Source: a bacterium (lineage in GTDB: Bacteria > Myxococcota_A > UBA9160 > SZUA-336). Taken from it: a stretch of 64,000 nucleotides of DNA. Where the stretch lies: positions 1 through 64,000 of the forward strand of contig JAAELY010000259.1 in NCBI GenBank assembly GCA_024226335.1, given 5' to 3'. How positions within the stretch are numbered: position 1 is the first letter of the stretch; each line of letters begins with the position of its first letter. A program made the translations under genes and the position numbers. The notes beneath the pieces are model-generated. The model did not search any database and was not told the DNA's origin. It saw only the letters and a program-made list of their open reading frames with translations. This document shows, piece by piece, positions 31,390 to 35,253 of the stretch.

Positions 31390-32091
31390 TCAGCGGCGCA
31401 GGAGATTGTATTTGATCAGACAGAGCAGAGCCTGGAAGCCGTCGCGCCAGCCGATCTTCTTGCCTTCCTCGTAGGTACGCCCGTAGTACGAGATCGGAAC
31501 CTCATAGATCCGCCAGTTTCCCCGCGCCACTTTGGCAGTGACCTCGGGTTCGAAGCCGAAACGATCTTCTTCGAGAGTGATCGATTCGATGACTTCTCGG
31601 CGAAATGCCTTATAGCAGACTTCCATATCCGTCAGGTTCAAATTGGTTAACAGATTGGACAGGAAGGTCAGCCCTTTGTTCGCGATCGAATTCCAGAAAT
31701 ACAAAACTCGGTGCGGACCGATCGAAAGAAAACGACTGCCGTAGACCACGTCAGCGATGTCGCGTTGAATCAAATCAATCAGCCGCGGAATTTCCTCTGG
31801 ATCGTACTCGAGGTCGGCGTCCTGCACGATCATCATGTCGCCCGTCGCTTCCTGAAAGCCGCGTCGAACTGCAGCGCCCTTGCCCCTATTCTCGGGTTGT
31901 AGCACTGCACGAACGTTCTCGTGTCCCGCTTCGATCTCTTCGATCAGGTCAATCGACCCATCTGTGGATCCATCGTCCACGAGAACCAGTTCGACATCGC
32001 AGCCGTAGTCCACGGCCAATGCGCGGCGCACCAGTTCCTCGAGCGTGTGTCGCTCGTTATAGACCGGGATCACGACCGAGAGCTTCTTCAT
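31390..32091 (-). CDS. Family 2 glycosyltransferase (dolichyl/polyprenyl-phosphate sugar transferase-like)
   Basis: 233 aa from ATG 32091. [23 protein letters not shown] and the metal-binding DAD in [14 protein letters not shown] define GT2. [13 protein letters not shown] and [12 protein letters not shown] match the DPM1-like branch that transfers a hexose to a polyprenyl phosphate. No membrane helices are evident. TAGAAT lies 7 nt before the ATG, so the mRNA is probably leaderless. The gene is divergent from the glutamine amidotransferase gene (61 bp between starts). Confidence 0.9.
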
Positions 32092-32098
32092 CGAGAGG

Positions 32099-32104
32099 AT
32101 TCTA
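32099..32104 (-). promoter_or_regulatory. -10 hexamer TAGAAT directly before the GT2 gene
   Basis: TAGAAT on the minus strand, then 7 nt, then ATG 32091; no Shine-Dalgarno. It selects this ATG over the upstream GTG-type start that would place the hexamer inside the coding region. Confidence 0.45.
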
Positions 32105-32139
32105 ACCCGCATTTCCCGCCACGGCGCGTCAGCTGTCGC

Positions 32140-32911: not shown

Positions 32912-33874
32912 TCAATCGAGATTCTCCGCACCCCGCGAAGAATCGTCCAGGCGCAGCCAGGCGAGCGTCGCACCCCAGCCACCGCGTTGGGGTGGCGCGT
33001 CTTCGTAGCGTTTCACGCGTGGATGCGCGGCGAGAATTCCCTGAACTCGCTCGCGTTGTATCCCCTTACCTTTGCCGTGGATGAGCCGCACCTCGGCAAA
33101 GCCTGCATCAGCGGCGGCCTCGAGGTATGCCTCGACTACCTTGGGGATCTCTCGTGGGCGAAACGTATGCAGATCGATCGCCTGTTCGATTGGCATCTCG
33201 ACGGGTTCATCTTCCACCCAATCGTCTTCTTCTCCGTCCGGTTCCGATTCGGTTGAGTCCTTCGCGGGGCGATCAGACTCTTGGCGTCGGAAGCGGCCAA
33301 AACGAGTCGCGAACAAGCCTGCGAGAATACCGGTGTAGATCAACGGTACGAAATTGTCGGCCTTCACGAGCCATAGGTAATGGGCAGCAGCGGCGGCGCC
33401 CGCGACATAGGCCAGTCGGTGCAGAATCTCCCAGCGCCGACCCAGGTATCTGATCCACGCGCGCGTCGATGTGATTGCGAGAGGGAGCATGCAGAGAAAT
33501 GCGGTGAATCCGGCCAGAACGAATCTCCGCTCCAGCACGTCTTCGATCAAGGCATCCCATTCAAAGAAGAGATCCAGGCCGACATAGGTGCTCAGGTGCA
33601 GAGACGCGTAGAAGAAGGCGAATAGGCCAAACGTCCGACGGTACGGCGCCAGATACTGCCAGGCCAGGATCACCCGAATCGGCGTGATTGCGAGCACCAA
33701 CCAGAGGAAGCGTAGTGCCCAATCGCCAGTTTCATGAGTGATCTCTTCGATCGGGTTGGCGCCGAGTTCATCAAAGGATGCGCGGACCGCGAGAACGAGG
33801 AGCGGAAGCAGGCCGAAGAAAACCACGGCCGCGTGAACTGGAGAAACTCGCTTTCGTCTAGTGGTCTGGCTCAC
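32912..33874 (-). CDS. msrQ: MsrQ heme membrane subunit fused to a C-terminal Smr domain
   Basis: 320 aa. Residues 1-200 are MsrQ/YedZ: about six helices with heme-ligand candidates in FYASLHLSTYVG, ILHRLAYVAG and AAHYLWLV, at the positions of E. coli His91, His151 and His164. After an acidic linker (residues about 205-230), residues 233-310 form an Smr domain: AIDLHTFRPREIPKVVEAYL and LIHGKGKGIQRERVQ. MsrQ passes quinone electrons to MsrP. The Smr domain usually binds or cuts nucleic acid, and its link to MsrQ is unexpected. msrP ends 18 bp upstream on the same strand. Confidence 0.87.
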   Translation of the reverse strand: MSQTTRRKRVSPVHAAVVFFGLLPLLVLAVRASFDELGANPIEEITHETGDWALRFLWLVLAITPIRVILAWQYLAPYRRTFGLFAFFYASLHLSTYVGLDLFFEWDALIEDVLERRFVLAGFTAFLCMLPLAITSTRAWIRYLGRRWEILHRLAYVAGAAAAAHYLWLVKADNFVPLIYTGILAGLFATRFGRFRRQESDRPAKDSTESEPDGEEDDWVEDEPVEMPIEQAIDLHTFRPREIPKVVEAYLEAAADAGFAEVRLIHGKGKGIQRERVQGILAAHPRVKRYEDAPPQRGGWGATLAWLRLDDSSRGAENLD

Positions 33875-33892: not shown

Positions 33893-34888
33893 TCAGTAGA
33901 ACCTCGAAAGGTTCATACCGCTGTACAGATGTGCGACCTGCTCTCCGTATCCATTGAACGGAAGGGTCTTTCGCTTGCGGAACTCACCAATTCGACGCTC
34001 CCGCTTCTGGCTCCAGCGGGGATGATCAACTTCGGGATTTACGTTTGAGTAGAAACCGTACTCCTTCGGCGAAGACACGTTCCAGGAGGTCTGGGGTTGA
34101 GTCTCCATCAGCTTGATGCTGACGATCGACTTGATGCTCTTGAAGCCGTACTTCCAGGGAACGACCAGACGCAGTGGAGCGCCATTTTGATTGGGTAGTT
34201 CGCGCCCAAACATCCCCACCGCCAGGAATGCGAGCGGATTCATGGCTTCGTCGATACGAAGACCTTCGCGGTAGGGCCAGTCGAGCACCTTGCGACTCAA
34301 GGCTGGCATCTGTTCGGGATCACTGAGGGTACGAAACTCGACGAATCGGGCTTCGGGAGCGGGTTCGAGTCGCTTCAAGACCTCGGCCAGCGGAATACCC
34401 ACCCATGGAATGACCATCGACCAGGCTTCCACACAGCGCAGACGATAGGTCCTTTCCTCCAACGCGTGTGGTTTCAGAAGGTCTTCGAGCGGAATCGACC
34501 CTGGCTTCTTGAGCATTCCTTCGATGCTCACCGACCAGGGCCTGGTGAGCATCCCTCCGGCGTATTGGACGGGATCAGCCTTCTCGCTGCCGAACTCGTA
34601 GTAGTTGTTGTAGCTGCTCGCGTCCTGGAAATCGGTGAGTTCCTCTTCCGTTCCAAAGACACCCTTCGGCAGGTCCCCGTAGACTGCCGTGGAGGCGGTG
34701 TCTTTCCCGGCAGGAGATGAAGCATCTTCCGCTGCGCTACATCCGGGTAGCCATGTGATGCCCGCGAGCATGCCGGTAGCGGCGGCGCCCCTTTTCAGGA
34801 AATCTCGGCGACGCAGGTAGAGAGCTTCGTCGGTGATCTCACCCGAGGGAAGTTCCCAAGGGCGACGAAATCGAACTACTACGGACAT
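33893..34888 (-). CDS. msrP: Periplasmic methionine sulfoxide reductase, molybdopterin subunit
   Basis: 331 aa from ATG 34888 (AGGAAGG 6 nt upstream); a longer open frame upstream is not coding. Tat signal [14 protein letters not shown] leads to an apparent second lipobox-like stretch ([10 protein letters not shown]), so the mature protein may be lipid-anchored. The molybdenum-ligand Cys is in [20 protein letters not shown], nearly identical to E. coli MsrP. It repairs oxidised methionine in envelope proteins with electrons from the MsrQ-Smr fusion encoded next. Confidence 0.94.
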
Positions 34889-35058
34889 TGGGCCTTCCTG
34901 TACCGGTTCCATCCCGGCTATATGGGGTCTCCCGGGCAAGTCTGCAGACTCGAGCATGGAGTTTGTGACCCGCCCACGTCCCCAGCGATGCACGTGTCGC
35001 TCGAGAACGACGAGTGTACCCCAGTTGCAAGTGCGTGACCGGCGGGAACCGACAACTC

Positions 35059-35253
35059 CTACGGCTTGAAGCCAGTAGAGAACCTTCCCGTGCAACTGGC
35101 GAGCTGAACAAAACCCTCCTCCGTTTGTGCTCGTGCAAACAACGATTGGAGCTCTTCAATGACGACATGCGACAGATCGTCCGCCTTACCGTCGGCAATA
35201 CGAAGCACCGCAATCTCATGATCGAATTCACCGGACAGCGCCTTTGTTGGCAT
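35059..35253 (-). pseudogene. N-terminal remnant of an enoyl-CoA hydratase/isomerase
   Basis: 64 codons from ATG 35253, with GGAG 9 nt upstream, ending in TAG at 35059. It reads EFDHEIAVLRIADGKADDLS then [13 protein letters not shown], which matches the crotonase start (VAVLRLDDGKANALS ... GRFSAGFDL). A normal crotonase has about 250 residues; here the frame stops right after the first active-site region and no continuation is found in the next 170 bp. It is therefore a decayed fragment with an apparently intact initiation site. The remaining 34889-35058 stretch shows no gene. Confidence 0.6.

Follow-up and report, generated by a model that had tools for sequence, protein, structure and literature searches.

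MsrQ (YedZ) is the haem subunit of the periplasmic methionine sulfoxide reductase MsrPQ, and in E. coli it is established that this subunit carries electrons from the cytoplasmic side via its haems to periplasmic MsrP. The protein requires a cytoplasmic electron donor (PMC11031084). MsrQ-type cytochromes have also been described in fusion with a second domain: in MamZ (NF040998) the MsrQ-like domain is located at the C-terminal end and its partner is transporter-like, and in another MsrQ fusion the partner is an electron carrier, an FMN-binding domain (PMC11334425). Bacterial Smr domains occur in three described architectures (SmrB type, MutS2 and KOW-SMR), none of which is membrane-bound. SmrB and its relatives use the DxH and GxG motifs to bind RNA and cleave mRNA at collided ribosomes; DxH is often missing from MutS2, and nuclease activity is absent from some Smr domains (PMC10897456). 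Pairing of MsrQ with an Smr domain is not mentioned in the literature searched.

We identified such a pairing in the 64,000-nt stretch of DNA analysed here (the window), which belongs to a draft genome of 556 contigs (97% complete). One gene, a 320-aa ORF on the minus strand (32912-33874) with a GTG start and no internal stop, joins a complete MsrQ to a complete Smr domain, and the fusion is genuine. Compared to MamZ and the MsrQ-FMN fusion, the partner in this protein is a nucleic-acid-type domain placed at the C-terminus. The ORF starts 18 nt after the end of msrP (Table 1). The msrP product matched NF003767 with 453 bits from residue 74 of its ORF; the TTG that opens this ORF is too early, and the true start lies later at an uncertain position, with a Tat motif (RRRDFLKRG) inside the ORF.

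Table 1. Parts of the fused gene and neighbouring genes in the window
Feature	Position	Strand	Description and evidence
MsrQ part, residues 1-200	33275..33874	-	six-helix b-type cytochrome; NF003831, PF01794, conserved His, pLDDT
Acidic linker, residues 201-232	33179..33274	-	probably disordered; alignment, N-terminus survey, low pLDDT
Smr domain, residues 233-308	32951..33178	-	PF01713, full profile; conserved columns; Smr fold
msrP	33893..35095	-	catalytic subunit, directly upstream of the fused gene; NF003767
Peptidase C26	32153..32845	+	gamma-glutamyl hydrolase-type, convergent, other flank of the insertion site; PF07722
Family 2 glycosyltransferase (GT2)	31390..32112	-	in the syntenic block common to G009; PF00535

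The N-terminal half belongs to the MsrQ family and shares with it the order after msrP, six helices and the haem-ligand histidines (His47, His93, His152 and His165), which were invariant in 25/25 unfused MsrQ relatives. Profile searches gave a PF01794 match in this half and a match of residues 7-200 to the MsrQ equivalog NF003831 (167 bits, cut-off 130). When the two halves were aligned separately, 44 of the 45 columns in which at least 90% of the 25 unfused proteins agree were intact in the fused MsrQ. In a full-length AlphaFold2 model, most of the helical membrane part reached a pLDDT of 91-98. The structures that this model matched best, though weakly, were STEAP1 and the membrane domain of NOX5, which is what an MsrQ protein should give. 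Alignment of relatives showed that unfused MsrQ stops just past the last helix, as the initial annotation had stated, whereas the fused protein adds a C-terminal Smr domain on its predicted cytoplasmic side (about 120 residues including the linker). Loop charges predicted an N-in/C-in topology by the positive-inside rule, which would place the Smr domain in the cytoplasm, the compartment in which known Smr relatives work.

The C-terminal half matched PF01713 at residues 233-308 (74.3 bits, cut-off 25.7) over profile positions 1-77 of 77. It contains DLHTF at 234-238 (DLH, 234-236) and HGKG at 266-269, and the DxH and HGxG motifs were invariant in the surveyed stand-alone copies. At a conservation threshold of at least 80% across the stand-alone copies, 27 columns qualified, and the fused Smr retains every one of them (28/28 with a slightly different column set); only 18/73 stand-alone Smr copies reached the full score on the same columns. 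Conserved columns are thus kept in both halves, with no sign of decay in either. AlphaFold2 prediction of residues 200-320 with an Smr alignment gave a confident Smr fold at 232-308 (pLDDT about 91-97 for most of its residues), and all seven PDB matches with E<=0.001 were Smr-domain proteins (MutS2, YdaL and SmrB). The original observation of MsrQ and a full Smr domain with DLHxF and HGKG motifs in one ORF was therefore confirmed, both by profiles (167 and 74 bits) and by the structure prediction that had been proposed as a check.

Among described Smr proteins, MutS2 showed the best general resemblance (61 bits, equivalog cut-off 400), which was confined to its C-terminal part; the fused protein has no MutS2 ATPase architecture and lacks the clamp and KOW parts. 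SmrB (E. coli YfcN), a ribosome-collision mRNA endonuclease, has the same DxH and HGxG motifs and likewise has an extension ahead of a C-terminal Smr, but its equivalog was matched with only 26.7 bits (cut-off 128) and its N-terminal hook region is absent here. Moreover, separate members of both families were present: besides the fused protein, the source genome encodes two Smr proteins, MutS2 and an SmrA/SmrB-like protein of 188 aa whose gene lies beside aroC. It has no MsrQ and no small Smr other than those in the fused gene, and so no separate copy of either. The gene of the 188-aa protein (L001:1204-1770, contig C183) directly precedes chorismate synthase, and this genome thus has Smr proteins of three kinds. 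We know of no activity for the small Smr subfamily.

The two halves are connected by an acidic segment (15 D/E vs 4 K/R at residues 195-232) with low pLDDT at 217-230 in the full-length model. Stand-alone Smr copies open with a short acidic tail followed by EPVxxPIE...DLH, and the second half of the linker is alike. This resemblance suggests that the fusion is a relocated native gene, and a part for the acidic linker in docking or electron transfer is not supported, since similar tails precede Smr proteins that stand alone. There was no start codon within residues 195-219. Production of free Smr from an internal start was considered (GTG220 and ATG227 exist, with GGAG ~14 nt before GTG220) and rejected as weak.

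Comparison with related genomes revealed the empty site. G009, a member of the same family, has the order GT2-C26-msrQ-msrP as in the window, with an unfused msrQ that overlaps or abuts C26 and no Smr between them. The related genome G007 has the same msrP-msrQ/C26 junction, in which the stop codons of msrQ and C26 overlap by a few bases. The window differs from both only by the Smr extension between msrQ and C26; a misjoin is therefore unlikely, as it would need one gene inserted exactly there and in frame. The initial annotation had also considered misassembly unlikely, a conclusion that holds; what makes it convincing is the empty site and not, as argued there, the adjacency to msrP. Relatives have separate genes, and no frameshifted fusion was found among them. 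Contig C40 of G001 carries a Smr gene facing the C26 orthologue in convergent orientation, but this contig ends inside Smr and the upstream part is cut off. The fused Smr is 73% identical to a stand-alone Smr from another family of the same class, and it grouped with the stand-alone copies of its own class on a tree of few columns (support 84/86, weak), indicating a native origin. The simplest history suggested by these sequences is that a native smr gene was relocated behind msrQ and the msrQ stop was lost.

We further checked the occurrence of this domain pair. In a class sample of 91 genomes, 41 had both MsrQ and a small Smr, and in 41/41 the two genes were on different contigs. No match spanning both domains was among the matches listed for a 379-genome phylum sample, for ~395 genomes from the phylum of an Acidobacteria locus or for ~395 genomes from the phylum of a Desulfobacterales locus. 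Altogether, among the matches listed from about 1,350 genomes, near the top of which a true two-domain match is expected, there was no other complete MsrQ-Smr fusion or adjacent pair, G001 being incomplete. The complete fusion thus occurs in one genome and looks specific to its lineage. The initial annotation had named many related genomes with the fusion or a neighbour pair as what would support its reading; none appeared among the matches listed, and a nucleic-acid link to methionine repair is not supported. Two candidates for a second fusion were rejected: G001:C226 (match to residues 184-271) looks like a stand-alone Smr preceded by an acidic tail of its own, and G679 (match to residues 146-307) is a two-helix anchor joined to Smr. 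A separate observation is that G077 has two MsrQ genes on one contig (C135:19362-19928 and 272344-272907).

Additional fusions of the small Smr were detected in a survey of the N-termini of 142 loci, a biased sample partly picked for long frames and for matches to the MsrQ helix region. One example, in the same class (G036), involved a complete MFS transporter joined to Smr through an acidic linker in a single ORF from ATG to stop (L073:5112-6668, +). Another, in the same phylum (G181), was a histidine kinase (HisKA and HATPase_c) with N-terminal helices joined to Smr (L189:581-2101, -), whose frame starts at the edge of the sequence examined there. In the Acidobacteriota sample, two N-terminal helices preceded Smr in five genomes (L165, L166, L167, L184 and L216) and a one-helix anchor in a sixth (L168). 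A soluble MutT-like NUDIX-Smr protein was present in the Desulfobacterota sample (G950, L209:415-1152, -). In GC-rich genomes, many Smr genes were preceded by long open frames (e.g., L191-L195 and L199-L203); these were Arg-rich or antisense-looking by eye and were not accepted as fusions. The fusions were scattered among stand-alone copies on the tree and had unrelated partners, indicating that the joins were independent. All partners except NUDIX were membrane-bound, and Smr was cytoplasmic wherever topology could be guessed from sequence. Membrane proteins make up ~30% of a proteome; on this basis, five different membrane partners against one soluble partner have a chance of ~1% (a post hoc binomial estimate from small numbers and a biased sample). 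What recurs is a membrane protein with Smr, not MsrQ with Smr. However, most copies of this small Smr stand alone and have no predicted helix, so the family does not require tethering, and the independent membrane anchors are few, some of them having come to light because matches that extended into the helix region of MsrQ were followed.

Our preferred reading, to which we give a probability of about 50%, is that a nuclease-type Smr module is tethered to the inner membrane, here by MsrQ. The genome's own small stand-alone smr gene would have come to lie at the 3' end of msrQ, with the convergent C26 gene on its other side, and to be read in frame with msrQ; the product would be a bifunctional inner-membrane protein. 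By analogy with E. coli MsrQ, the MsrQ half probably continues to relay electrons via the haems from the cytoplasmic side to periplasmic MsrP. The Smr half may hang in the cytoplasm on the flexible acidic linker as an endoribonuclease-type domain (with its DxH and HGxG motifs), its targets being mRNA or stalled ribosomes close to the membrane, with a presumed benefit from tethering. MsrQ would chiefly serve as an anchor and expression platform, not as a partner in methionine repair. The fusion itself thus stands as first described, and its interpretation shifts from methionine repair to Smr as a membrane-tethered module.

The chief rival, to which we assign a substantial minority chance, is that a chance relocation joined two working proteins that kept their old jobs, so that sharing one chain and one membrane is meaningless. 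It agrees with the single complete case, with the separation of MsrQ and Smr genes in the rest of the class and with the many different neighbours of stand-alone Smr, but the independent joining of the same Smr to several other membrane proteins and the conserved residues of both halves speak against it. Redox coupling, in which oxidative stress sensed or relayed via the MsrQ haems controls the Smr nuclease and envelope damage alters mRNA turnover, is improbable: the shared chain and msrPQ operon favor it, as does an oxidation-damage-type enzyme (MutT-like NUDIX) fused to Smr in another phylum, but the pairing with MsrQ is conserved nowhere else among the matches listed, the flexible acidic linker offers no conformational path, and the MFS and two-helix anchors lack a redox centre. 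Still less probable is an Smr domain without nuclease function that now docks a cytoplasmic flavin reductase (a Fre-type donor) or another protein to MsrQ; although MsrQ needs an electron donor in the cytoplasm (PMC11031084), unfused MsrQ of relatives does without Smr, and the domain retains DxH, HGxG and every other conserved residue. We scarcely credit an assembly or sequencing artefact joining two genes, since, despite the draft state of the genome and the lack of a close relative with the full fusion, both flanks keep the gene order of G009 with the Smr part alone added, the reading frame runs unbroken into the Smr tail, and G001 also has a Smr gene convergent with C26.

In a broader and doubtful extension of the tethering reading, the small DLHxF/HGKG Smr subfamily could be an unrecognised RNA endonuclease module tethered to the membrane. 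It would have been grafted, repeatedly and independently, onto the cytoplasmic ends of inner-membrane proteins that are not related to one another (MsrQ, an MFS transporter, a sensor kinase and short helix anchors), and in the phyla that have it would parallel the membrane compartment of RNase Y and RNase E. RNase Y, a membrane-anchored endoribonuclease, offers a possible working likeness, as it also holds an RNA-cutting domain at the inner membrane (PMC7029143, PMC11313650); its catalytic domain and anchor are unrelated, and RNA cutting by the Smr protein is presumed. If small Smr proteins are nucleases held at the membrane by many anchors, RNA surveillance at the inner membrane would be wider than RNase E and RNase Y.

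Genes adjacent to stand-alone Smr were varied overall, with several recurrent arrangements. In one family of the class, an ApaH-like gene was adjacent to or overlapped Smr on the same strand at six loci (L072, L074, L076, L077, L085 and L086), forming an apparent operon; ApaH is an Np4-cap decapping enzyme, and these ApaH-like proteins scored slightly under the equivalog cut-off. At eight loci, these six included, stand-alone Smr of the same family lay opposite conserved DHH-family genes. In Desulfobacterales, stand-alone Smr followed NYN_YacP (10 loci) and IspH (9 loci) within about 1-3.5 kb. Judged by gene content, these neighbours suggest a role in RNA or nucleotide metabolism, not methionine repair, and the relatives beside ApaH, NYN/YacP and DHH genes make the membrane-nuclease idea directly testable. 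In addition, a fusion of IspH (LytB) with a UbiA-type prenyltransferase domain was observed between NYN_YacP and the small Smr at L018:4165-5904 and at eight other Desulfobacterales-type loci.
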